A DNA stretch of 23,703 nt from a virus. Shown piece by piece: positions 1 through 23,581 of the stretch. The notes beneath the pieces are model-generated. The model did no database searches. It was given only the letters and a program-made list of their open reading frames with translations, and was not told the origin of the DNA. The stretch spans positions 1 to 23,703 of IMG/VR virus record IMGVR_UViG_3300030329_001452; one strand, 5' to 3'. Position 1 is the stretch's first letter, and the number at the start of each line of letters is the position of its first letter. The position numbers and the translations under genes were made by a program.

Positions 1-77
1 ATTTCTCCCTTGCTTAGATCGCCCATAGCCGGGAGCAAGCTATTGGGTAAGATACAAAAGTTCTCTGTTTGTTTCAA
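1..77 (-). CDS. Partial CDS, possible winged-helix replication protein (5' end only)
   Basis: The first 25 codons of a leftward gene run off the window edge. The frame is open from a TTG at 77-75, which overlaps the TGA of the preceding gene (TTGA). An AAGGGG ribosome-binding site lies six bases upstream. The peptide contains 'FCILPNSLLPAMGDLSKGE'. A hydrophobic-PN-LL-then-LS-GE pattern is typical of the start of winged-helix domains in phage replication-initiation (O-like) proteins. That assignment is inference from a short piece; the presence of a reading frame with a coupled start is directly seen. Confidence 0.45.
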   Translation of the reverse strand, partial: MKQTENFCILPNSLLPAMGDLSKGE

Positions 78-571
78 TGAACGCCCCTTACGTTATCATG
101 TATGTTTTGTGCTGTGGTTCTTATAACCATCCAGATATCTTTTGGTTTAGCATCGATACCTACCTTTATCCCTTTCTCAGCAAATGACTCCTTCACTTCA
201 CTCTGCATTCTTAATAGATCCTTCAAACTGTCTTGCGCTATGTCTTCAGTGTATTTGCTTTCTATCAAGGGTTTATTATTGATAAGGTACGCCGCAGAAT
301 AGATCTGACTACGATGCCACCAATACTCTATGCCCGCCATGATCTCTTCATCATCTTCTTCGTCTTCAAATATATCTGGATCAAGAAGCATAGCGAAGTA
401 ACCATCAGGTGAATCAACTTCCTTTTCTTTCTGCCATTGAGCAGCCCACTGCATCTCGTCAGGAAACCAGAAGAAGCCATCTATTACTGTACCAATATCA
501 TTCTCAGCCGGGTCCCCGCTTTTTATAGCCTTGGCTATTTCAGTTATATCTTGTAGTTGATACTCCTTCAT
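74..571 (-). CDS. Hypothetical acidic protein, 165 aa
   Basis: I do not recognise this protein. It is rich in Trp and acidic residues, with an Asp/Glu cluster (DIFEDEEDDEE) in the middle and a tryptophan-rich 'GIEYWWHRSQIY' segment after it. No membrane segment or signal peptide is visible, so it is probably a soluble cytoplasmic early protein. I chose the ATG at 571 over an upstream alternative at 619. It forms an ATGA overlap with the dUTPase stop and has an AGGAG ribosome-binding site just before it, whereas the longer version would overlap dUTPase by about 50 bases. It is part of the leftward chain of four-base overlaps and is probably co-translated with its neighbours. Confidence 0.75.
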   Translation of the reverse strand: MKEYQLQDITEIAKAIKSGDPAENDIGTVIDGFFWFPDEMQWAAQWQKEKEVDSPDGYFAMLLDPDIFEDEEDDEEIMAGIEYWWHRSQIYSAAYLINNKPLIESKYTEDIAQDSLKDLLRMQSEVKESFAEKGIKVGIDAKPKDIWMVIRTTAQNIHDNVRGVH

Positions 572-1077
572 AACTCCTGGCCTTTCGTTAACTCCTTTAT
601 ATCCGTACCATAATCCCATCCACCAAAGTCGTCTGTGCTTCCGAAACCGCCATCACCTCGCTGCGACTGGATGTCAAATAAACGATGCGCTTCGACTTCA
701 ATGATTTGAGGTAATGCTATAGGTAAGTACAAGAATTGAACCAGCTTAGTATTGGGTAGTATGAATACATTACGATGACTGACGTTCATAACATGCAAGT
801 GTATCTCACCCTCGTATCCTGAATCGACAACACAAGCACCAACCTGAAGCCCGTGCTTGGTTGCCACACCTGACTTATTGAATGCTACTAATGCCATACC
901 AACAGAGATATGCGCCTTGATTCCACTCGCTATCTTAGTGGAGTGTCCTGGCTCTACAGCTTCAGAACGGTAATCAGCTGGTACATAAAAGTCTATACCA
1001 GCGTCGTATTGATGAGCACGACTTGGAGATTTTACATCCCGTATCTTACAGAATCTAAATACTTGCGGCATATTCAT
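568..1077 (-). CDS. dut: dUTP diphosphatase (dUTPase), trimeric type
   Basis: Hydrolyses dUTP to dUMP and pyrophosphate, which keeps uracil out of phage DNA and supplies dUMP. All five motifs of the trimeric dUTPase family are visible in order: motif 1 'DAGID' (residues 25-29), motif 2 'NKSGVATKHG' (67-76, with Lys where Arg is usual), motif 3 'VVDSGYEGEI' (83-92, catalytic Asp85), motif 4 'KLVQFLY' (111-117) and motif 5 'RGDGGFGSTD' (140-149). About 20 residues follow motif 5; the full length of 169 is slightly above the usual 140-155. The ATG at 1077 overlaps the previous stop as ATGA, with AAGGA about nine bases upstream. It sits in the same operon as a thymidylate-synthase-like nucleotide hydroxymethylase, which fits a deoxynucleotide-remodelling role. 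Confidence 0.96.
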   Translation of the reverse strand: MNMPQVFRFCKIRDVKSPSRAHQYDAGIDFYVPADYRSEAVEPGHSTKIASGIKAHISVGMALVAFNKSGVATKHGLQVGACVVDSGYEGEIHLHVMNVSHRNVFILPNTKLVQFLYLPIALPQIIEVEAHRLFDIQSQRGDGGFGSTDDFGGWDYGTDIKELTKGQEL

Positions 1078-1265
1078 TCTATGTGGTCCTTAATTGTTTC
1101 TACTCGACCTGACCAGTCGATGGTTATTGACATAGGTTTAGGGTCTGTCCAGACGAAACCGTCACTTGTACCCGTTATATCTAACTGGTTAAGGAAGCTC
1201 ACCAACTGAAACGCCGACGTTGCTTCGCTTTTCTCGTCCGTCTTGATATCGATACGTATTGCCAT
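1074..1265 (-). CDS. Hypothetical protein, 63 aa
   Basis: Small soluble protein of unknown function. It reads as a plausible beta-rich domain: a charged start 'MAIRIDIKTDEKSE', a helix-like 'TSAFQLVSFLNQL', then alternating hydrophobic residues up to 'WSGRVETIKDHIE'. A strong ribosome-binding site (GGGAGGT) lies about nine bases before the ATG at 1265, and the stop overlaps the dut start as ATGA. Both points argue that it is real, although its first 77 bases lie inside the 3' end of the upstream gene in another frame. Confidence 0.65.
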   Translation of the reverse strand: MAIRIDIKTDEKSEATSAFQLVSFLNQLDITGTSDGFVWTDPKPMSITIDWSGRVETIKDHIE

Positions 1266-1620
1266 CCTCTGCTACCTCCCGTTTCTGTTGTTCTGATGCA
1301 TGAAGCTCTGGATCATTCCAATCTTCTGCCTCTTTCTTTGCCTCGGCCCAAGCCTGTTTCTCTTTGTACTCTGCCCATCCTTCCATGTAACCGCATACAT
1401 CGACCATATTGTCTCGCTTATGTACCTGCTTTTCTCTCGCGAACTTCAACCCGATCATCAAGGCATATGCCATATCCATGGTTACCATATTACCCGTCAT
1501 GACCATAGCAAAGTTACATGCATCCTGCATATTCTGATCGAACGATCCATAATCGTGACCATCTGCATTTTTGTAGACGATACTGTGTGCATCCAACAGT
1601 ATGCTCTTATCGATACTCAT
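1189..1620 (-). CDS. DUF6378-like phage protein, 143 aa
   Basis: Residues about 8-85 follow the pattern I know from the phage family DUF6378: 'DAHSIVYKNADGHDYGSFDQN' region, then 'VTMDMAYALMIGLKFAREK', then 'RDNMVDVCGYMEGWAEY'. The diagnostic points are the YG after the first helix, the K-AR pair, and D(N)xVD-GY. Function is unknown; the family often occurs beside nucleotide-metabolism genes in phages, which is also the setting here. The C-terminal 50 residues (Glu, Lys and Gln rich, 'EEQKREVAEDG'-like) look disordered and are the part overlapped by the next gene. The ATG at 1620 overlaps the hydroxymethylase stop as ATGA, and GGAGG lies seven bases upstream. The family name is from memory of the motif pattern, not from a search. 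Confidence 0.72.
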   Translation of the reverse strand: MSIDKSILLDAHSIVYKNADGHDYGSFDQNMQDACNFAMVMTGNMVTMDMAYALMIGLKFAREKQVHKRDNMVDVCGYMEGWAEYKEKQAWAEAKKEAEDWNDPELHASEQQKREVAEDGNTYRYQDGREKRSNVGVSVGELP

Positions 1621-2456
1621 AGTCTCCCTCCAACGAAGTTGTCTTGTTTAAACTCATCTACCATTTCCCACATCTGCTCAAGCTCTATGTCTCTACTGGG
1701 TAAGTACAGCATATCCTGCAGAACACGACCCCACGTAAACTCTTCAATTAACTCATATTTATCGAATACTTCGTTATTATAAGCATCGAATAGTAGATGC
1801 CAATAAGGTTCATAGCAATGAAATGATGCTGCAGTATATGTGAACGAACCTAACCCTATCCAAGGTATATCTGTTCGCTCCATTAGCTCGTTGCGCATCA
1901 TCTGTAAGAACAGCATACCTACCGCTACATCGTTGCAGAATCCAAACACGAAATCACTGGATCTCATATTCCAGATCAGATGCAGTTTATCATCTCGTAT
2001 AAAGAACTGAACGAACATCGTACATGGTACGTCCTTCATACCATAGTCTATATCAGGCTGATTCAAGGCTATCACAGCTCGCCGTGATTCTGGAAACCTT
2101 AATAGCTCATTAACAACTCGATCCCAGCCCCGATAAAGACCAACACCATAATTACTATGTACGTTACCATTGACACTAGCAATATCTTGCCAGGTAGAGG
2201 CTGCCTTCCCAATATTTCTAACGTTTTGATCTTGCGATAGATACCACATAAACTCGAGTAAAGCGTAGCGAACATTGAATTTTCTCTCTGGGTTATATAT
2301 ATTTATTTGACACACATCATCAATAGTTACGCTTTGATTGAATAACTCGATAGCTTTGCTATCTCCTTTGGATGACTTAGTTGCAACTACATTTCCATCA
2401 TAACGTAACCCATGCCGCATACCTTCATATGCTTGCTGCAAAGTACGATACCTCAT
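1617..2456 (-). CDS. Thymidylate-synthase-fold enzyme, probable dCMP 5-hydroxymethylase
   Basis: Belongs to the ThyA/dCMP-hydroxymethylase family, which uses methylenetetrahydrofolate to modify C5 of a pyrimidine nucleotide. Visible landmarks: Glu68 in 'LLEFMWYLS', Trp89 in 'STWQDI', 'NYG' at 102-104, the nucleophile Cys145 in 'DVPCTMF', the phosphate-binding 'RSSD' at 165-168, and His213/Tyr215 in 'SFHCYEPYW'. Cys145 to Arg165 is 20 residues, exactly as in E. coli ThyA (C146, R166). At the position of ThyA Asn177, which selects uracil, this protein has Asp176 (11 after Arg165, as in ThyA and in T4 gp42). Asp there is the hallmark of dCMP hydroxymethylase (T4 D179). I therefore infer hydroxymethyl-dCMP production, possibly for modified virion DNA. 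Length of 279 is close to ThyA and gp42. Both ends overlap neighbours as ATGA. Thymidylate synthase remains the alternative. Confidence 0.85.
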   Translation of the reverse strand: MRYRTLQQAYEGMRHGLRYDGNVVATKSSKGDSKAIELFNQSVTIDDVCQINIYNPERKFNVRYALLEFMWYLSQDQNVRNIGKAASTWQDIASVNGNVHSNYGVGLYRGWDRVVNELLRFPESRRAVIALNQPDIDYGMKDVPCTMFVQFFIRDDKLHLIWNMRSSDFVFGFCNDVAVGMLFLQMMRNELMERTDIPWIGLGSFTYTAASFHCYEPYWHLLFDAYNNEVFDKYELIEEFTWGRVLQDMLYLPSRDIELEQMWEMVDEFKQDNFVGGRL

Positions 2457-4569: not shown

Positions 4570-4977
4570 TTACGCAGCTAATTGTTGCTCAATACCTTCA
4601 GCAAGTTCCTCAGCGAAACTTTCGACTTTATCCATCGGCCAGATCTTTAAATATCCTGGCATTTGTTCGTAATGGCAAAAAGTATCAACACCATCTTCAG
4701 TATCACCGAATATAGCTTTTAATTTACTGTTGTGCAAAGACACAATAGCAAATCGTCGCTCTTCCGGATGTAGCTTCGATGGTTTTTTAACTCGAGTAAA
4801 GACTTTGTTTGATCCTTCAGGATCAGACTCAATCTCGATCGAATCAGCATTGTACGTTACTTTAAACTTCGAACCACACTCAAACCCATCCAAACCATAT
4901 CGCTGTTCTTCGAGCCACAAACGTCTTTTGCCCTTTTGCGTATGGATTTTCATCGGTACAGGTCTTATTCCAGTCAT
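4570..4977 (-). CDS. Conserved protein, paralogue 1 of an in-window pair, 135 aa
   Basis: Paralogue of the gene at 5643-5987: by hand count about 70 of 106 aligned residues are identical, beginning at 'HTQKGKRRLWLEEQ' and including 'VFTRVK', 'ERRFAIV', 'FGDTE' and 'GVDT'. The pattern (KG..RLWLE, G-F-G, paired beta strands, a closing GY-KI-P) resembles small SymE/AbrB-like beta proteins sometimes seen near DNA-modification genes; I hold that loosely. A 25-residue Glu-rich C-terminal helix ('ESFAEELAEGIEQQLAA') is absent from its partner. The ATG at 4977 is preferred over 4992 because GGAG lies nine bases upstream. It follows the 73-residue gene, six bases after its stop, downstream of promoter motif B. 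Confidence 0.75.
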   Translation of the reverse strand: MTGIRPVPMKIHTQKGKRRLWLEEQRYGLDGFECGSKFKVTYNADSIEIESDPEGSNKVFTRVKKPSKLHPEERRFAIVSLHNSKLKAIFGDTEDGVDTFCHYEQMPGYLKIWPMDKVESFAEELAEGIEQQLAA

Positions 4978-4982
4978 AATTT

Positions 4983-5204
4983 TTAGCTCCATCGGTCAAT
5001 GTTAGAATCGGTATATATACTGCTGTTCAAAACCCACTCAGCTTCTTCGTACTGGTCATAATCCTGATAATCGGACTGTAGCTCATTGCTAAGATCGTCC
5101 CACTCAGACTCAATGACCATCGAGCGACTAAATAAGTCCCAATTATTAGTGTCAAGACACTCTTGCCACATAGCTTGAACAGCATCGCTTTTTGCTTGGT
5201 CCAT
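4983..5204 (-). CDS. Hypothetical acidic protein, 73 aa
   Basis: Highly acidic protein with Trp residues spaced through it ('AVQAMWQECLDTNNWDLFSR', 'ESEWDDLSNELQSDYQDYDQ'), resembling the DNA-mimic or antirestriction style of small phage proteins. That resemblance is compositional only. I start at the ATG at 5204, six bases after GAGG; an upstream TTG at 5216 is less likely. It is the first gene after promoter motif B (5246-5276), so it is probably an early, well-expressed product. It has no membrane segment and no recognisable family motif. Confidence 0.7.
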   Translation of the reverse strand: MDQAKSDAVQAMWQECLDTNNWDLFSRSMVIESEWDDLSNELQSDYQDYDQYEEAEWVLNSSIYTDSNIDRWS

Positions 5205-5562: not shown

Positions 5563-5646
5563 CTAGTACTTCGTCAATAACATCACGAAGACGCCAGCAA
5601 GGAGTAAAAACGATATTATACAGATACCAATTTCAGCGCCAGTCAT
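5563..5646 (-). CDS. Tiny single-pass membrane protein, 27 aa
   Basis: Starts at an ATG overlapping the stop of the upstream gene (ATGA at 5646-5643) and ends at TAG. The product starts 'MTGAEIGICIISFLLLAGVF' and ends 'VMLLTKY', so almost the whole protein is one hydrophobic helix with a short acidic N-terminus and a Lys-Tyr end. It has no ribosome-binding site of its own and presumably relies on coupling. It lies between the paralogue gene and the strong terminator, so it is the last gene of a two-gene unit. Small membrane peptides of this size in phages can modify the envelope, inhibit a membrane partner or act as toxins; nothing here decides which. Confidence 0.6.
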   Translation of the reverse strand: MTGAEIGICIISFLLLAGVFVMLLTKY

Positions 5647-5987
5647 GACGACACCGGCATGATTTTGATATACCCTTCAGACATTTCGTACGACAATGGA
5701 GTATCGACACCATTCTCCGTATCGCCGAAAAGCTCTTTGAGACGAGCATTGTGAATTCCAACGATGGCGAAGCGACGCTCCGTCGGAATACGTTTCGAGG
5801 CCGCTTTGACGCGGGTGAACACCGTGTTGGTACCGTTCGGATCGGACTTGATTTCGACCGAATCCTCATTGTACACAACGTTGAACCGCGAACCCGGCGC
5901 GAAGCCAGGCAGTCCGTACTTTTGCTCTTCGAGCCAGAGCCGGCGCTTGCCTTTCTGAGTGTGGAGCTTCATGGGCTTATTGTTCAT
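5643..5987 (-). CDS. Conserved protein, paralogue 2 (GC-rich copy), 114 aa
   Basis: About two-thirds identical to the protein encoded at 4570-4977, sharing 'HTQKGKRRLWLEEQ', 'VFTRVK', 'ERRFAIV', 'FGDTE' and 'GVDT', but without the Glu-rich C-terminal helix. The DNA is clearly different in composition: a 60-base stretch at 5761-5820 has 37 G+C, against 25 in the matching stretch at 4741-4800. This copy therefore probably came from another genome and was not duplicated in place. An AAGGA ribosome-binding site lies eight bases before the ATG at 5987, and promoter motif C lies about 50 bases upstream. With its own promoter, a small membrane-protein partner and a strong terminator it forms a moron-like cassette. 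Function unknown; a small SymE/AbrB-like beta fold is possible. Confidence 0.78.
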   Translation of the reverse strand: MNNKPMKLHTQKGKRRLWLEEQKYGLPGFAPGSRFNVVYNEDSVEIKSDPNGTNTVFTRVKAASKRIPTERRFAIVGIHNARLKELFGDTENGVDTPLSYEMSEGYIKIMPVSS

Positions 5988-16637: not shown

Positions 16638-16976
16638 ATGGCTAACGCATTTAAAAACAAAGCTAAAACACTGACTAATGATACATTATCCACAGTGTTT
16701 ACGGCGCATACATCTGGAGCAGCGGAGACAGTTATACACAGCCTGACTGTATGCAACACAGGAACGGCTGGAACAATCAACGCAGACATAGTGGTTACTG
16801 ATTCAAGCCCTTCAGCAAGTTACTACATTGCTAAAGTGGCTCCAGTTCCAGAGGGTAGTTCTCTTGTATTTGCTGACATCAAATTAAATCTAGAATCTGG
16901 AGACATACTAAAAGCTAAGTCTTCTCATGCTAGTGGACACTTGGATGTATTCGCTTCGGTGCTTGAGATAACATAA
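16638..16976 (+). CDS. Small beta-sandwich structural protein, 112 aa
   Basis: Begins 'MANAFKNKAKTLTNDTLSTV' and continues with alternating hydrophobic strands ('AETVIHSLTVCNTGTAGTIN', 'YYIAKVAPVPEGSSLVFADI') and a final 'GHLDVFASVLEIT'. Short proteins of this pattern accompany tail-fibre genes in marine phages, but I do not recognise a defined family. An AGGAG ribosome-binding site lies before the ATG. Its stop overlaps the next start (TAATG), so it is co-translated with the first adhesin. Confidence 0.6.
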   Translation: MANAFKNKAKTLTNDTLSTVFTAHTSGAAETVIHSLTVCNTGTAGTINADIVVTDSSPSASYYIAKVAPVPEGSSLVFADIKLNLESGDILKAKSSHASGHLDVFASVLEIT

Positions 16977-17884
16977 TGGCCTATCTAGGAAAATACGAAA
17001 CAAGGACTGCCGACTTTAAGGTGTATACCAGTAGCACGGCTACTGCTACGCATACCTTATCGTGGACACCGACGAGCAAGCAAAGTCTTCGTATTACTAT
17101 TAATGGTGTTGTCCAGCAAGACGATGCGTTTAGCCTTACAGGTAATACAGTAACATTAGATGCTGCAATCTTATCGACTGATGTTCTGGAGATTGTTGGC
17201 GTAAATGAACTAGGCGGACAAGTCCTAGTCCCTGCTGACGGAAGCATTCAGACAGGCAAGTTGGGTGATAACTCTGTAACCCTAGCTAAGATGGCAGGCG
17301 GTACAGACGGTAATTTGATTACATACGATGCTAGTGGTGATCCAGCATACGTTGCTACGGGAACAGCTACTCATGTATTGACATCTAATGGTGCTGGTGC
17401 TGCACCGACTTTTCAAGCGGCTGCTTCAAAAGACAACTTGCCAGCTTTTTATGCAAGTATGACTAGTGGAAACCAAACGATAGGTGATAATTCTGCAACG
17501 CTCATTAGTCTCGATAATTCAGTTTTTGATACCGCAAGTGGTTTAAATGTTACAGCATCGGGAACTAATCCACGCAGTTATACGGTGCAAGCGGGTGGTG
17601 CAGGTAAGTGGTGCTTGATTTGGTCCGCGTGGCTTCAGGGAAGTACCAGCAGAACCAACAAGGTGTCTTGCGCTTTACGAAAAGGCGGATCAACAATTAA
17701 TGAGATTATCCATCAGCAAACTGCTAATGATGGGTTTGGACAACATTCCTGCGCTGGTGTTGCGTTAGCGGAATTGATAGTTGGTGATTATATAAATTTG
17801 TATGCAACTATCGATGTTAACAGTGGAACACCTACTATTTATACGAGTGGCACATGGCTACAAGGGTTTAGGTTGGCAGAATGA
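16976..17884 (+). CDS. Adhesin with YLG attachment module and C1q-like head, 302 aa
   Basis: Three parts. Residues 1-75 form an attachment module starting 'MAYLGKYE' with 'SLRITINGVVQQDDAFSLTG', a module shared with the gene at 20344. A linker 'GNLITYDASGDPAYV' and 'TATHVLTSNGAGAAPTFQ' follows. From about residue 150 comes a beta-sandwich like the C1q/TNF family: 'FYASMTSGNQTIGDNSATLI', a middle 'AGGAGKWCLIWSAWLQGSTS', and an end 'YTSGTWLQGFRLAE'. C1q-like heads are trimeric ligand binders; here the likely role is host-surface recognition. The gene overlaps the small following gene by ATGA. Confidence 0.72.
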   Translation: MAYLGKYETRTADFKVYTSSTATATHTLSWTPTSKQSLRITINGVVQQDDAFSLTGNTVTLDAAILSTDVLEIVGVNELGGQVLVPADGSIQTGKLGDNSVTLAKMAGGTDGNLITYDASGDPAYVATGTATHVLTSNGAGAAPTFQAAASKDNLPAFYASMTSGNQTIGDNSATLISLDNSVFDTASGLNVTASGTNPRSYTVQAGGAGKWCLIWSAWLQGSTSRTNKVSCALRKGGSTINEIIHQQTANDGFGQHSCAGVALAELIVGDYINLYATIDVNSGTPTIYTSGTWLQGFRLAE

Positions 17885-18183
17885 AATCAAAAGGACTTGA
17901 AAAATTAGGATTTGTTCCTGATAGAGACTTTAAACTCCAAGACGATGGCGAGGGTTCATATATAAAAGATTGGTTTAGTACAGAGCCCCGACCAACTCAA
18001 GCAGCTGTCGATGCAGCTTATATTGAGTGGGAAAATGATTACTCACGCAATCGCAAAGAAGAATACCCATCAGTAGATGAACTAATCGTAGCACTTTGGG
18101 AGGGTGTTGTAGAAGAAAGAATGGCAGCAGTTACTAAACTAGAGGCGAAACGACAGGCTGTCAAACTTAAATATCCCAAGTGA
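17881..18183 (+). CDS. Small fibre-associated protein, possible assembly chaperone, 100 aa
   Basis: Charged helical protein. The C-terminal part 'YPSVDELIVALWEGVVEERM' followed by 'LEAKRQAVKLKYPK' resembles a YPS-hD-hALW element that ends many phage fibre-associated proteins and small tail-assembly (XkdW-like) proteins. The first half ('FVPDRDFKLQDDGEGSYIKD') is acidic. It is coupled by ATGA to the C1q-type adhesin, so a dedicated folding or attachment partner is a reasonable but unproven guess. The stop overlaps a GTG start of the small membrane gene. Confidence 0.62.
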   Translation: MKSKGLEKLGFVPDRDFKLQDDGEGSYIKDWFSTEPRPTQAAVDAAYIEWENDYSRNRKEEYPSVDELIVALWEGVVEERMAAVTKLEAKRQAVKLKYPK

Positions 18184-18344
18184 GTTTTATTGTTGGGATT
18201 GCGCGAATAGCGCATTGGTTTTTAATACCTTTCTTGGTGGTATGGATGACGATAGCACCGAGTGACATGCTGCCTAAGTGTTTATCAGACGCTAAGGCAC
18301 ACATAGCAGAACAATTTAGAGGAAGTTACTTTGGCACTAACTAA
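18180..18344 (+). CDS. Small membrane protein, 54 aa, GTG start
   Basis: A GTG at 18180 overlaps the preceding TGA (GTGA) and the frame runs to a TAA at 18342-18344. It encodes one hydrophobic helix ('SFIVGIARIAHWFLIPFLVV') followed by a soluble charged end ('DMLPKCLSDAKAHIAEQFRG'). It fills a 147-base gap in an otherwise contiguous set of genes. A holin or other lysis-related membrane peptide is possible given its length and single helix, but there is no endolysin in the window. It lacks a good ribosome-binding site and depends on coupling. The 3' end overlaps the TTG start of the next gene by 14 bases. Confidence 0.55.
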   Translation: MSFIVGIARIAHWFLIPFLVVWMTIAPSDMLPKCLSDAKAHIAEQFRGSYFGTN

Positions 18345-19263
18345 AATTCGAGCATCAAATCTCGATTCAACTGGCACAGCAGACGCGACTACCTTTTTAA
18401 GAGGTGACATGGAATGGAGTTACGCTAATACCTCCTATGACATAGACCTTCTCGTTGTCGGTGGTGGAGGAGGTGGGGGAAAAGGTATCGGCGGAGGTGG
18501 CGGAGCTGGTGGTTTTCAAACAGCCACGGCAACCCCTATTTCTGGTGGGGTTATCACAATAGTTGTAGGTGATGGAGGTGCAGGCGCCCCCGGAGGTGGA
18601 AATGCTTCTGGTTCCGTTGGAGTAACTTCTTCAGCGGGAGGCGGAGGTATAACGACAATCTCTTCTGCTGGCGGTGGTTATGGTGGTGGTTACAACATAG
18701 CTGGCGGTGCAGGTGGTAGTGGCGGCGGGGGTAGTGTCGCTGCTGGCGCTGGCGCAGGTAACACCCCTAGCACAACCCCATCACAAGGATCGACAGGTGG
18801 TGCTCCTTCTGGCGATCTAGGTGCAGCCACTAGTGCTGGAGGTGGTGGTGGCGCTACGAGTGCAGGAGCAGCGGGAGCAAGTAACGCAGGAGGTGCAGGT
18901 GGAAGTGGCACAGCTTCTACAATAACGGGCGCATCTGTTACTTATGCTGGAGGAGGAGGTGGTTCGACACACAGTGGTGGAGGATCTGGAGGAGCCGGCG
19001 GCGCTGGAGGAGGTTCCGCTGGTGGTGATTCGGGTGCAAGCACCACTGTGTCAAACGGAACTATTTATACTGGCGGAGGCGGTGGTGGTAATGGTTACAA
19101 CTCCCCCAATACTAACGCAGCGGGTTCTGGCGGTAAAGGGGTCGTTATCTTGAGTATGAATACAGGCTCATATACCGGTGTCACTAGTGGCTCACCTACT
19201 GTGACTACCTCCAGTGGGAAAACAATACTAACTTTTACAGGTAACGGTAGCTATACGGCATAA
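18331..19263 (+). CDS. Polyglycine-rich adhesin, 310 aa, TTG start
   Basis: The N-terminal linker 'LDSTGTADATTFLRGDMEW' is shared with other fibre genes here. The head starts 'YDIDLLVVGGGGGGGKGIGG' and is dominated by GG and GGG runs with Ala, Ser and Thr between. The 'LVVGGGGGG...GGGGGAGGF' pattern is that of glycine-rich fibre-tip domains, which in the T-even gp38 adhesin of phage S16 form stacked polyglycine-II helices. The C-terminus is beta-like ('TVTTSSGKTILTFTGNGSYT'). The TTG at 18331 has AGAGGA seven bases upstream. It is probably a receptor-binding tip. Confidence 0.75.
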   Translation: MALTKIRASNLDSTGTADATTFLRGDMEWSYANTSYDIDLLVVGGGGGGGKGIGGGGGAGGFQTATATPISGGVITIVVGDGGAGAPGGGNASGSVGVTSSAGGGGITTISSAGGGYGGGYNIAGGAGGSGGGGSVAAGAGAGNTPSTTPSQGSTGGAPSGDLGAATSAGGGGGATSAGAAGASNAGGAGGSGTASTITGASVTYAGGGGGSTHSGGGSGGAGGAGGGSAGGDSGASTTVSNGTIYTGGGGGGNGYNSPNTNAAGSGGKGVVILSMNTGSYTGVTSGSPTVTTSSGKTILTFTGNGSYTA

Positions 19264-19267
19264 TATT

Positions 19268-19630
19268 ATGGCATCATTCGCAAAGATTGGATTAAACTCT
19301 AAAGTTATTGAGGTGCATTCCGTGCATAATGACGTACTAAAGGATGCAGATGGGGTTGAACAAGAGTCTTTAGGTGTTGATTTCTTAACTAAACTCCTTG
19401 GTTGGGCGCTTTGGAAGCAAACCTCTTATAATGGTAACATCAGAAAGAACCATGCTGGTGTTGGGTATACATATGATGAGGTAAGAGATGCTTTTATACC
19501 ACCAAAACCATATCCATCATGGACTTTAAATGAAGCAACTTGCCTTTGGGATGCGCCAGTAGCTCACCCAGATGACGGTAAATTACATATTTGGGATGAA
19601 GAGAATACACAATGGGTAGAGGTTGAGTAA
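19268..19630 (+). CDS. Conserved marine-phage fibre-associated protein, 120 aa
   Basis: Closely resembles a small protein widespread in cyanophages and other marine phages, beginning 'MASFAKIGLNSKVIEVHSVH', with 'GVDFLTKLLGWALWKQTSYN' and 'NHAGVGYTYDEVRDAFIPPK', then 'YPSWTLNEATCLWDAPVAHP' and a final 'IWDEENTQWVEVE'. The middle seems shorter than typical homologues, which I recall having about 20 more residues before 'RKNYAGVGY'. Function is unknown. It sits between two polyglycine adhesins, consistent with a tail-fibre accessory or assembly role. Confidence 0.75.
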   Translation: MASFAKIGLNSKVIEVHSVHNDVLKDADGVEQESLGVDFLTKLLGWALWKQTSYNGNIRKNHAGVGYTYDEVRDAFIPPKPYPSWTLNEATCLWDAPVAHPDDGKLHIWDEENTQWVEVE

Positions 19631-20344
19631 ATGGCATTAACTAAAGTAGATAAAACAGTCATAGAAGCCACTGGAACAGCGAGTGCAACGACATTCCTAC
19701 GGGGCGATGGATCATGGAACGCTCCGCCTTCCTCTGGATTTATTGGGTACACGGTTTATACCGCATCGTCTAGTACTTGGACTAAGACCGACAATAATCC
19801 CACAAAGTTAGTAGTAGAGGTTCAAGGGGCAGGGGGTTCTGGCGGCGGCGGCGGTGCAAGCAAGGGTGCTGGTGGTGGCGGAGGTGGCTACGCTAGAAAG
19901 TTTTTGGATGTTACCAATATAGACACTTGTACTGTTGAGGTAGGTTCGGGAGGTCTTAACCCCACAACAAACTCAGCAGGCAATGCTGGTGGAGCATCCA
20001 AGTTTTACAAAGCATCAGGGTCTGGATCTTTTACAAGCATCGACGGACTTGGTGGGTCTGGTGGTGCCGCCAATTACGGTTCGGGCGGCGCTGGAGGCGT
20101 TGCGTCTGGTGGAGATATAAATATAACGGGCGGTAGCGGTGGTGGTGAAACAAACGAAAATAATATCGGTGGCGGATCATTTTTTACCCCGTCCCATTAT
20201 TCCATCACAAGCAATCTAAACCCCTCTGGTGCTGCAACAGGCTACGGTGGTGGTGGAGAAGGTTCAAGAAAAACTGGCGCTGGTGATGGTTCAAAAGGTG
20301 GTGACGGCATGGACGGGATAGTTATTGTCTGGGAGTATAAATAA
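19631..20344 (+). CDS. Polyglycine-rich adhesin, 237 aa
   Basis: The linker 'ATGTASATTFLRGDGSWNAP' is nearly identical in pattern to that of the gene at 18331. The head begins 'GFIGYTVYTASSSTWTK', continues 'KLVVEVQGAGGSGGGGG', and has many Gly-Gly runs. It ends 'GMDGIVIVWEYK', an ending shared in form with the gene at 21398. The gly-rich middle probably packs as polyglycine-II helices with exposed variable loops. The start lies directly after the TAA of the preceding gene and the stop shares a base with the next start. Confidence 0.75.
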   Translation: MALTKVDKTVIEATGTASATTFLRGDGSWNAPPSSGFIGYTVYTASSSTWTKTDNNPTKLVVEVQGAGGSGGGGGASKGAGGGGGGYARKFLDVTNIDTCTVEVGSGGLNPTTNSAGNAGGASKFYKASGSGSFTSIDGLGGSGGAANYGSGGAGGVASGGDINITGGSGGGETNENNIGGGSFFTPSHYSITSNLNPSGAATGYGGGGEGSRKTGAGDGSKGGDGMDGIVIVWEYK

Positions 20345-20772
20345 TGAGTTATCTAGGAAACGAGCCAAGATTTGGTACATACCCTGTACAGTTAATCACT
20401 CCTAATGGTGTTGATTCAACCTTTACACTGAATGAATCTCCAACTTCAGAAGCGTCGATCATCGTCACGATTGATGGAGTAAAGCAGCAGACAGATGCTT
20501 ATAGCGTAAGCGGTACGACATTAGACTTTGCTGGCACTGTTCCTGCATCGACTACTCAGATAGAGGTTGTCTACTTAGGGTTGGCTTCTGACGGAATCCC
20601 AACAGTAGACCAGACGCTAGGTACTAATGCGCTTATGAGAACTAACGCCCAGACCATCAACGAAGACATCACTATAGGCGCTACGACTAACGCAGTCAGT
20701 GGCGGACCTATTACTATAGCAGACACCAGAACAGTTACGATAACTACTGGTGGTAACTGGAGCGTCGTATGA
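20344..20772 (+). CDS. Head-less YLG attachment-module protein, 142 aa
   Basis: Consists of the attachment module also present at the start of the 302-residue adhesin: 'MSYLGNEPRFGTYPVQLITP', 'TFTLNESPTSEASIIVTIDG' and 'DAYSVSGTTLDF'. Then comes a short beta extension ('TINEDITIGATTNAVSGGPI', 'DTRTVTITTGGNWSVV'). There is no C1q-like or glycine-rich head. It may be a stand-alone connector onto which the next gene product docks, or the remnant of an adhesin that has lost its head by recombination. The stop overlaps the next start as ATGA. Confidence 0.65.
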   Translation: MSYLGNEPRFGTYPVQLITPNGVDSTFTLNESPTSEASIIVTIDGVKQQTDAYSVSGTTLDFAGTVPASTTQIEVVYLGLASDGIPTVDQTLGTNALMRTNAQTINEDITIGATTNAVSGGPITIADTRTVTITTGGNWSVV

Positions 20773-21398
20773 GTACATTAAAAGTCAACAAGCTACAGAA
20801 GACTGTGAGCGGAGCGGCTACATTCACACTACCTACTGATGATGGAACGGCTGGACAGTATTTAAAAACTGATGGCTCTGGAAACTTAACTTGGGGTACG
20901 CCACCAGGCCAAAAGATAACCCATGCAAGTCAATGGGTTCTTACTTCTACTCAATCGGGCGAGAAGAATCCCATCACTAGTGATTTAGAAGAACAAGGTT
21001 CACCAGTAGGGTTCGGTATTTTAGGGTCTTCTATGACGCAAGTAGGCGGTGTATTTACTTTCCCGTCTACGGGTTATTGGTTAATTAAATTCCATGCCCT
21101 GTATACAAATTCGGGTCGTATAGCAAGAATGAATGGCACTATTCAAACTACCACAAATGATTCTACCTATGTAGACGCAGCAGTAGCGTATGCTTTTACT
21201 GTATCGTCGCCTGCTCAACGTACAAGTTCTTGTTCTGAGTACATTTTTGATGTTACCGACACATCAACGCATAAGGTTAGATTTTCTTTTGGTGCGGCGT
21301 CAGGAACACCAGACTTATTGGGCGCGTCTAATGATTCCTCAAGCGGCACTGCATGGGATAGAAGTAGCATGACATTCATAAGATTGGCAGATACATAA
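20769..21398 (+). CDS. C1q-like adhesin, 209 aa
   Basis: The N-terminal linker 'GQYLKTDGSGNLTWGTPP' is followed by a C1q/TNF-type beta-sandwich: 'GILGSSMTQVGGVFTFPSTG', 'YWLIKFHALYTNSGRIARMN' and the closing 'AWDRSSMTFIRLADT'. It is a paralogue of the gene at 22147, sharing the linker, 'ASQW', 'FPSTG.W' and the final 'TFI(R/K)LA'. It probably trimerises and contacts host glycans or proteins. It is coupled on both sides (ATGA upstream, shared base downstream). Confidence 0.72.
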   Translation: MSTLKVNKLQKTVSGAATFTLPTDDGTAGQYLKTDGSGNLTWGTPPGQKITHASQWVLTSTQSGEKNPITSDLEEQGSPVGFGILGSSMTQVGGVFTFPSTGYWLIKFHALYTNSGRIARMNGTIQTTTNDSTYVDAAVAYAFTVSSPAQRTSSCSEYIFDVTDTSTHKVRFSFGAASGTPDLLGASNDSSSGTAWDRSSMTFIRLADT

Positions 21399-22147
21399 TG
21401 GCATCAACACTTATAGTAGATCAAATACAAAAGACAGGCGGATCGACAACTGCCTTAACGCTTCCGACATCTAATGCATCGGCTAATCAGTACTTACAGA
21501 ATGATGGTGCTGGAGCGCTTAGTTGGGCTACAGTCGCTTCTGCTGGATTCATCAAGTATACTGTTGTTACTGCTACAGATACAACATTTGATCTGGATTC
21601 GAGCACAACCAAACTTATTATCGAGGTTCAAGCATCTGGTGGTACCGCAGGTTCTAGTCATAGTTCTGGATATAACGGTGGTAGTGGTGGAGGTGGAGCA
21701 TATGCAAGGAAACTATTGACTGGAATAACAGGATCAACAGATAAACTCAATATACAAATTGGAGCTGTCGCTGGCATAGCGGGTTCTGGTAATGATACGA
21801 GTGTTGCCGCCGCTGGAACCGCATCGTTTACCACCATTACGTGCGCTGGTGGTTCTGGGGGTGCTACTGCTAGTGGAAGCGCTTCGGGCGACGGTGGATC
21901 AGGAGGAGCAGTCCCAACAACAGGGGATTTTAATATTGGTGGCGGTAATGGAACTAACGGTGCTGTTGGTCTTGCTAACGCCGCAGGAGGCTCGTGGATG
22001 AGTAGATGGAATGGTCGCAGCAATGCGAGTGGAGGTGTAGGCGTGGATGCACTGGGTTATGGTGGTGGTGGACCCGCCGCTTATGCTGGATCTCATGCTG
22101 GTGGTGATGGTGGGCCAGCAGTCGTAATAGTGTGGGAGTATGCATAA
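21398..22147 (+). CDS. Polyglycine-rich adhesin, 249 aa
   Basis: The linker 'ANQYLQNDGAGALSWATV' belongs to the same type as those of the C1q-like genes, here carrying a glycine-rich head. The head starts 'GFIKYTVVTATDTTFDLDSS', then 'KLIIEVQASGGTAG', many Gly-Gly runs, and a C-terminal 'GGPAVVIVWEYA'. The mixture of a C1q-type linker with a polyglycine head shows that heads and linkers are exchangeable in this array. It shares a start base with the preceding stop. Confidence 0.75.
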   Translation: MASTLIVDQIQKTGGSTTALTLPTSNASANQYLQNDGAGALSWATVASAGFIKYTVVTATDTTFDLDSSTTKLIIEVQASGGTAGSSHSSGYNGGSGGGGAYARKLLTGITGSTDKLNIQIGAVAGIAGSGNDTSVAAAGTASFTTITCAGGSGGATASGSASGDGGSGGAVPTTGDFNIGGGNGTNGAVGLANAAGGSWMSRWNGRSNASGGVGVDALGYGGGGPAAYAGSHAGGDGGPAVVIVWEYA

Positions 22148-22788
22148 TGGGTAAAGTAATTGCAGATTTAGCAGCATCAGCAGCAAGCGCAACATTTAGT
22201 GTAGAAAACGCGACGTCTAGTGTAGGGTATGTGCTGTCAGGGACAGATGGCTCTGCTAACGATCACTTAAAAACGGATGGTTCTGGGAACCTTTCTTGGG
22301 TTGCTCCTCCTGCTGGAGGGTTAACCACGGCTAGTCAGTGGCGTGTTCAAGCGGATTTTACTGGAGATGCGCAACCTATAGGCGATAGCACTGGTACGAT
22401 CGCAATAGTTAATACCGATGGTTACGGTTCGCTTGGTTCTGCAATGACATACGGGAGCGGTGTGTTTGCATTTCCTTCGACTGGTTTTTGGCTGTGTCTT
22501 GGACAATTCACTTTCACCTCCACATTAACAGGGAACGTTGCTGCTTACTTAGAATATACAGCGAACAATGGGGGTGCTTGGGCAACTGCATCACGATCAG
22601 AAGACGGTAGCAATTACGGGTATCGATCAAACGTTAATATTTATCACATGATGGACATAACTGACACAGCTAATCAGAAAGTGCGATGGTCTGTTGATGC
22701 AGATCCGGCGGGATCTGGAGGCACTATAACAACGAGAGGCGATGCCTCTGTAACCGAGACAGGATTCACTTTCATAAAATTAGCATGA
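22147..22788 (+). CDS. C1q-like adhesin, 213 aa
   Basis: Paralogue of the gene at 20769. It has linker 'NDHLKTDGSGNLSWVAPP', then 'TTASQWRVQADFTGDAQPIG', 'GVFAFPSTGFWLCLGQFTFT', and the C-terminus 'TETGFTFIKLA'. The N-terminus ('MGKVIADLAASAASATFSVE') differs from its relative, so the module before the linker has been replaced. I use the ATG at 22147, which shares a base with the previous stop and has GGGAG upstream; a GTG at 22132 is possible but unlikely. Likely host-contact protein. Confidence 0.72.
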   Translation: MGKVIADLAASAASATFSVENATSSVGYVLSGTDGSANDHLKTDGSGNLSWVAPPAGGLTTASQWRVQADFTGDAQPIGDSTGTIAIVNTDGYGSLGSAMTYGSGVFAFPSTGFWLCLGQFTFTSTLTGNVAAYLEYTANNGGAWATASRSEDGSNYGYRSNVNIYHMMDITDTANQKVRWSVDADPAGSGGTITTRGDASVTETGFTFIKLA

Positions 22789-22795
22789 AACTGAC

Positions 22796-23581
22796 ATGAC
22801 AAAGATCAGATCAACGAACATTCTGGATGGTGCGGTCACTGCGGCAGACCTTACTGATGACACGATCACAGTTGCCAAACTCAGCGGGAATGCGGCGGCG
22901 ACTGCGGGTACATTTCTCAAGCAAGACGGAACGTGGTCTGCCGCTGGCGGCGGATTCCTCGGTCTTGTCGTCTACACGGCAGACGGCACTTATACCCGTG
23001 GCGGAACATCAAACGGCACCTCTGGCGATCAAGGAAGCGCCAGCGTTACGAAGGTGATTATCCACGCAATCGGAGCGGGTGGTGCTGGCGGCGGAGGCTA
23101 CAGTAGCACCTACTGGGGGCAAGCGGGGGGAGGTGGAGCGTACTTTATCAAGAGTTTAGTCGTGTCTGGAATCACCAGTGCAACGATCACAATCGGCACA
23201 GCGGGTGCGGCTGTTGGTCAAAGCACAACGGGTAGTACCGGAGGCAACACGATCTGGTCAGATGGGACAAACACGCTGACGGCTAACGGTGGTGCTGGTG
23301 GAGATCGCGGATACAACAATGGACATGGATCATCGGCTGGAACTGGCGGCACGACAAGTTCCGGTGATGTCAATTTCGCGGGGTCACGGGGAACCAATGG
23401 TTCGGCTGGCGGAACAATCCCCGGAATTCCAATGGGTGGATGGGGTTTTTCCCCATACGATTACGCGACCGCTGGTAATCGGGTTTCGACGGGCTACGGA
23501 TATGGTGGCTGGACTGCGAACGCTTCACCTTGGTCTTATGCGGGGGGGTCAGGTTTAATGATCATCGAGGAATACGCATGA
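22796..23581 (+). CDS. Polyglycine-rich adhesin, GC-richer copy, 261 aa
   Basis: The linker region 'AAATAGTFLKQDGTWSAAG' is followed by 'GFLGLVVYTADGTYTRGG' and a glycine-rich head ('IGAGGAGGGGYSSTYWGQ'). It ends 'GSGLMIIEEYA', a variant of the VIVWEYA ending of its relatives. The base composition is higher: 34 of 60 bases are G+C at 22861-22920, against 27 of 60 in the comparable linker at 21421-21480. Codons ending in C or G are preferred. No ribosome-binding site is visible before the ATG at 22796. These points suggest that this gene was brought in by recombination at about 22790. Confidence 0.72.
   Translation: MTKIRSTNILDGAVTAADLTDDTITVAKLSGNAAATAGTFLKQDGTWSAAGGGFLGLVVYTADGTYTRGGTSNGTSGDQGSASVTKVIIHAIGAGGAGGGGYSSTYWGQAGGGGAYFIKSLVVSGITSATITIGTAGAAVGQSTTGSTGGNTIWSDGTNTLTANGGAGGDRGYNNGHGSSAGTGGTTSSGDVNFAGSRGTNGSAGGTIPGIPMGGWGFSPYDYATAGNRVSTGYGYGGWTANASPWSYAGGSGLMIIEEYA

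Follow-up and report, generated by a model that had tools for sequence, protein, structure and literature searches.

An uncultivated bacterial virus carries an open reading frame (ORF) for 279 aa whose product is, with high confidence, a dCMP hydroxymethylase belonging to the clade of T4 gp42. The stretch of DNA that was analysed (hereafter the window) comprises 23,703 bases and is the whole of the IMG/VR virus record IMGVR_UViG_3300030329_001452, itself a fragment of a genome. The reading is well supported by homology, fold, active-site residues, tree position, selection and neighbouring genes. The enzyme class as such has long been known; what is new is its carriage by a small uncultivated virus of bacteria. 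The ORF had been proposed in an earlier, sequence-only reading that did not give its strand; it was borne out and lies on the minus strand. The genes of the surrounding block and the codons of the diagnostic residues are collected in Table 1.

Table 1. Genes and diagnostic codons of the hydroxymethylase block (window coordinates)
Feature	Position	Strand	Remarks
Predicted dCMP hydroxymethylase (T4 gp42 type)	1617..2456	-	279 aa, ATG start
DUF6378 protein, 143 aa	1189..1620	-	PF19905, 35.6 bits; ATGA overlap, directly downstream of hydroxymethylase
Small ORF, 63 aa, between DUF6378 and dUTPase	1074..1265	-	no Pfam family
Trimeric dUTPase family protein, 169 aa	568..1077	-	PF00692, 63.8 bits; PHROG_135, 1e-29
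181-aa protein overlapping dUTPase gene	74..619	-	no family matched; kept in block
Ser101-Asn102-Tyr103 codons (T4 Ser94/Tyr96)	2148..2156	-	
Asp142 codon, Cys-3 position (T4 Asp145, water activation; ThyA Leu143)	2031..2033	-	
Cys145 codon, catalytic nucleophile (T4 Cys148, ThyA Cys146)	2022..2024	-	
Thr146 codon (ThyA His147 position; T4 gp42 also Thr)	2019..2021	-	
Asp176 codon, base selector (ThyA Asn177, T4 Asp179)	1929..1931	-	

Family, fold and phylogeny

The Pfam scan assigned the ORF to the thymidylate synthase (TS) family (Thymidylat_synt, PF00303) with 63 bits, the cut-off being 24.3, and it matched PHROG_160 at 4e-36. In a sequence search of the PDB the best match was T4 dCMP hydroxymethylase (dCH; PDB 1b5d, 6a9b) with 84 bits (E=7e-23), whereas MilA came second with 45 bits and E. 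coli TS scored 44. Considering these scores and the invariance of Asp176 (see below), the assignment is not a matter of chance. Moreover, a profile of 10 viral proteins matched T4 dCMP hydroxymethylase in the PDB with 187 bits, the next entry reaching 97 and those thereafter 84-89. The AF2 model of the ORF (pLDDT 85, pTM 0.89) shows the TS/dCH fold, and a Foldseek search with this model returned MilA first with T4 dCH close behind.

In a tree of 20 rows, several deep forks of which are weak, the ORF, three of its relatives, contig L042 and T4 gp42 form a clade of 6 rows with a support of 98/99. The enzymes of the Xanthomonas phages Mallos and YB23 branch with ThyA (100/98), apart from the ORF, and SPO1 gp29 is found elsewhere. 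A scan of cellular genome contigs for homologues of the hydroxymethylase yielded no relative.

Active-site residues and choice of substrate

The ORF corresponds one-for-one with T4 gp42 at E68, S101, Y103, R125, R126, D142, C145, T146, R165, S166, D168, D176, H213 and Y215. These include the features of the TS superfamily, namely the nucleophile C145, the Arg pair R125/R126, E68 (Glu60 in T4) and the ribose contacts H213/Y215. A multiple alignment confirmed that C145, R165, S166-S167-D168, H213 and Y215 stand in the register of ThyA, with the numbering of the sequence-only reading, and that the spacings it had given (20 from the Cys to the Arg and 11 from there to the selector) are those between C146, R166 and N177 of ThyA, for which the E. 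coli residues were checked. That reading had also placed Asp176 at the selector position. In the alignment with ThyA, T4 gp42, SPO1 gp29 and other phage enzymes this residue indeed falls on ThyA N177 and T4 D179. Its neighbour Asn175, which at the selector would have spoken for a uracil enzyme, aligns with T4 N178; since it is Asp176 and not Asn175 that aligns with ThyA N177, that objection falls away.

In the MetaGPA study (PMC8670742) positions 177 and 147 were those that best separate the TS homologues of viral contigs with modified cytosine from those of unmodified ones. The ORF has Asp176 at the former and Thr146 at the latter, and the earlier proposal that the substrate would be dCMP and not dUMP is supported by this pair of residues.

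Hydroxymethylation versus other activities

The Asp selector would equally suit a dCMP methylase of the Xp12 kind, in which a hydride transfer instead of the addition of water would yield 5-methyl-dCMP and hence 5mC in the DNA. According to a passage of PMC8670742 that cites Liu and Santi (1992), the Asn-to-Asp exchange in thymidylate synthase leads to methylation of dCMP, and therefore the selector alone cannot exclude such an enzyme. The ternary structure of T4 gp42 (PMC6400193) provides a second discriminator: Asp145, three positions before the catalytic Cys (Cys-3), constitutes together with Ser94/Tyr96 the signature of hydroxymethylation, and the D145N variant makes no 5hm-dCMP. These positions are filled by Asp142, Ser101 and Tyr103 in the ORF, and the same residues occur in 10/10 aligned viral proteins, which argues against a methylase. 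The homologues of Mallos and YB23 served as the methylase control; they are probable methylases, judged from the DHFR genes near both enzymes and from the size of YB23, which at 63.8 kb is as in Xp12. They have the Asp selector as well, but carry Asn at Cys-3 and Pro after the Cys, and their place beside ThyA in the tree sets them further apart. In addition, no DHFR was recognised among the early genes scanned, and the C-terminus of the ORF (FVGGRL) is unlike the tail of ThyA. At Cys-3, ThyA has Leu (Leu143) and the dUMP hydroxymethylases, whose selector is Asn, have Asp. The selector and the Cys-3 residue thus sort the enzyme set two by two, and the ORF falls in the cytosine-hydroxymethyl cell. 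The signature residues and the tree, which joins the ORF to T4 gp42, support the prediction that the product is hydroxymethylated and not methylated, and we consider a methylase very unlikely.

A dUMP enzyme, that is a thymidylate synthase or an SPO1-type dUMP hydroxymethylase that tolerates the Asp selector, could be fed by the dUTPase encoded in the same block, and the record of the relative G001 (see below) holds no other TS match besides the hydroxymethylase. However, the removal of dUTP fits the dCMP reading just as it fits the dUMP reading, as in T4 hydroxymethylation likewise goes together with a dCTPase-dUTPase (PMC8056088), and the hydroxymethylase of Enterococcus phage nattely also adjoins a dUTPase, followed there by a beta-glucosyltransferase. 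The selector is Asn in the uracil enzymes that were aligned (ThyA, SPO1 gp29 and the SH-Ab dUMP hydroxymethylase), and the annotated dUMP hydroxymethylases have another Asn directly after the catalytic Cys, whereas Asp176 is invariant in 10/10 aligned viral proteins; considering also the grouping with T4 gp42, action on dUMP is extremely unlikely. The ribonucleotide counterpart, a CMP hydroxymethylase like MilA, deserves mention as MilA is the top match in fold and the second in sequence and has the selector Asp as well. Nevertheless, the preference of MilA for ribose is set by Ala176 and Lys133 (PMC5175136), and the ORF has the deoxyribose-type Ser166 and Arg126 of T4 at these positions. A deoxyribonucleotide substrate is supported by these two residues, and the chance that the enzyme acts on CMP appears close to negligible.

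Gene block, relatives and selection

The hydroxymethylase protein was found in 6 IMG/VR records at 75-100% identity and in a seventh, L040, at about 44%. Wherever a relative extends over this region the order hydroxymethylase, DUF6378, dUTPase is preserved, DUF6378 being present in 7 of 7 such relatives, and in the close relatives the dUTPase gene is followed by those of the 181-aa protein, a DnaB-like helicase, an exonuclease and a ribonucleotide reductase. The six hydroxymethylase copies show dN/dS values of 0.12-0.19 among each other, and the gene is under purifying selection. Another 19 records that share the terminase gave no match to it; the checked contigs end before the early block and thus the missing gene says nothing about these phages. 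The PADLOC defence models had no match among the early genes scanned.

Two other features of the window were recorded. Two similar proteins (4570-4992, minus strand, 140 aa, and 5643-5987, minus strand, 114 aa; MKxHTQKGKRRLWLEEQ...) are encoded in the stretch that separates the hydroxymethylase block from the terminase, a pair that is kept in relatives and to which the family searches gave no name. The region 16638-23581 (plus strand) holds a run of glycine-rich, repeat-like proteins with the common N-terminal motifs FLRGDGxW and LxxDGSGxLxW. These are probably parts of tail fibres or appendages that vary between relatives.

Accessory genes in the relative G001

The relative G001 comprises 42,894 bases. 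Its sequence matches the window at 99.6% identity over the window's first 3,427 bases, its terminase and portal are related to those of the window, and, judged from the window, some 1.6 kb between its ends seems to be all that it lacks. As the two are related phages, pooling their genes into a single inventory is an inference. The genes of G001 include those for a replication initiator-like protein, a DnaB-like helicase, a resolvase, an exonuclease, an SSB-like protein and a large ribonucleotide reductase (RNR). A 2567-aa protein (G001:22583-30286, plus strand, partly in L013) is probably an internal protein of the virion.

Family scans recognised no DNA polymerase, kinase, glycosyltransferase or carbamoyltransferase among the G001 genes, and a motif search among the ORFs of G001 and the window revealed no kinase-like P-loop protein. 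The sole GxxxxGK[ST] motif of G001 resides in the DnaB-like protein, so that this search found no nucleotide kinase of the P-loop type, whether T4 gp1-like or other. The sequence-only reading had seen no glucosyltransferase in the window, and scans of the early genes against protein families agree with this; it had also pointed to the region beyond the window for an hm-dCMP kinase or a glycosyltransferase, and neither was found in G001. Carbamoyltransferases were likewise not found in the window or among the early genes of G001; hmC itself needs no decoration. T4 uses a kinase of its own for hm-dCMP, gp1. For the present lineage, either the host kinases suffice, or the gene went unrecognised, or the replacement of dC is partial.

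A possible route to modified DNA

The enzyme would act as in T4. Cys145 would attack C6 of dCMP, while Asp176 would bind the cytosine and protonate N3, and the one-carbon unit would be passed from methylene-tetrahydrofolate onto C5. A water molecule activated by Asp142, with Ser101/Tyr103, would then add to the exocyclic methylene to give 5-hydroxymethyl-dCMP and tetrahydrofolate. After phosphorylation, probably by host kinases, hm-dC would replace some or all of the dC in the phage DNA and block many restriction enzymes. We consider it likely that the virion DNA contains hmC, and the chain from the enzyme via modified virion DNA to protection from host restriction is plausible. Considering that G001 lacks a recognisable kinase, transferases and DNA polymerase, it is inferred that the virion DNA is modified, to what extent, and whether it is decorated further.

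In T4 the competing dCTP is removed by the dCTPase-dUTPase of gene 56 (PMC8056088). On basis of the ATGA overlap with the hydroxymethylase gene and its conserved motif YG...KxxR...DNxxDxxGY, DUF6378 was considered as a MazG-like dCTPase. A profile search of the PDB with DUF6378 returned nothing, its AF2 model is weak (pLDDT 65, pTM 0.54) and had no Foldseek match in the PDB, and hhalign comparison with two PRA-PH-like neighbours gave a probability of 0.1 on shallow alignments. DUF6378 and the hydroxymethylase possibly form a functional pair, and by its position DUF6378 is a candidate partner in the control of the nucleotide pool. Upstream of the L042 hydroxymethylase, too, a protein resembling DUF6378 is encoded, with a score slightly below the Pfam cut-off.

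The phages best known for hydroxymethylating cytosine are large ones of the T4 kind, equipped with a polymerase, a kinase, a dCTPase and sugar transferases of their own. That a hydroxymethylase cassette is conserved in a lineage of small uncultivated phages suggests that far less equipment can also suffice for the use of modified cytosine, and marks DUF6378 as a testable nucleotide-pool gene. In its most far-reaching form, a phage of about 44-45 kb without a polymerase, kinase or glycosyltransferase of its own would make hmC DNA with the hydroxymethylase, DUF6378 as the pyrophosphatase that removes dCTP, and the dUTPase, relying on the kinases and polymerase of the host. We regard this full scheme as doubtful; if it were true, DUF6378 would represent a new dCTPase family and the complete T4-style accessory set would be dispensable. 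Conversely, should the ORF prove inactive on dCMP, the residue rules for the annotation of metagenomic TS homologues would need revision.

Homologues and comparison with known systems

In several homologues the genomic context is richer. The nattely enzyme (gp051) lies with a P-loop protein, a dUTPase and a beta-glucosyltransferase; that of Xanthomonas phage Xp15 (gp36) with a carbamoyltransferase, a PRA-PH, a P-loop-like protein and a dCMP deaminase; and that of contig L043 with a carbamoyltransferase, a P-loop protein, a second TS-like protein and a dUTPase. A 5hmC carbamoyltransferase has been demonstrated biochemically (PMC8670742). The transferase neighbours of the homologues are consistent with hmC chemistry, while modified DNA in the present phage is a separate question. 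Two further TS homologues were observed. The second TS-like protein of L043 (3131-3919, plus strand) has Met for T4 Glu60 and Asn for T4 Asp171, and is perhaps a partner, either degenerate or without catalytic activity, of the hydroxymethylase encoded there. The homologue of Maribacter phage Molly_3 (L025:4932-6011, plus strand), with Asn as selector and Asp at Cys-3, is of the hydroxymethyl-uracil type by the rule described above; it adjoins an annotated beta glucosyl transferase gene and sugar-nucleotide genes, which would suggest glycosylated hydroxymethyl-uracil in that phage.

Compared with T4 gp42, with which it shares 32% identity, the clade, the catalytic and signature residues in register and the motif RSxDxVFGFxND, the ORF is 33 aa longer and has a C-terminal extension of its own, ending in FVGGRL. 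Moreover, it has Cys174 where T4 uses Arg177 to bind the folate tail, and Thr88 for T4 Ile81, and there is neither a beta-glucosyltransferase beside it nor a phage kinase that was found. Nattely gp051 and Xp15 gp36 have the Asp selector, the Asp at Cys-3, the Ser/Tyr pair and nearby nucleotide-pool genes (dUTPase, PRA-PH, deaminase) in common with it, but in these phages a transferase and a P-loop or kinase-like gene are adjacent, for which the sequence read from the window lineage has no counterpart. The fold and Asp selector are common to MilA (PDB 5jnh), which differs in the ribose-type Ala/Lys pair. The Xp12-type dCMP methylases, as represented by Mallos and YB23, share the Asp selector and differ in Asn at Cys-3, the branch on the side of ThyA and the DHFR neighbours, whereas the dUMP hydroxymethylase SPO1 gp29 shares the Asp at Cys-3 and differs in the Asn selector, the Asn after the Cys and its place in the tree.
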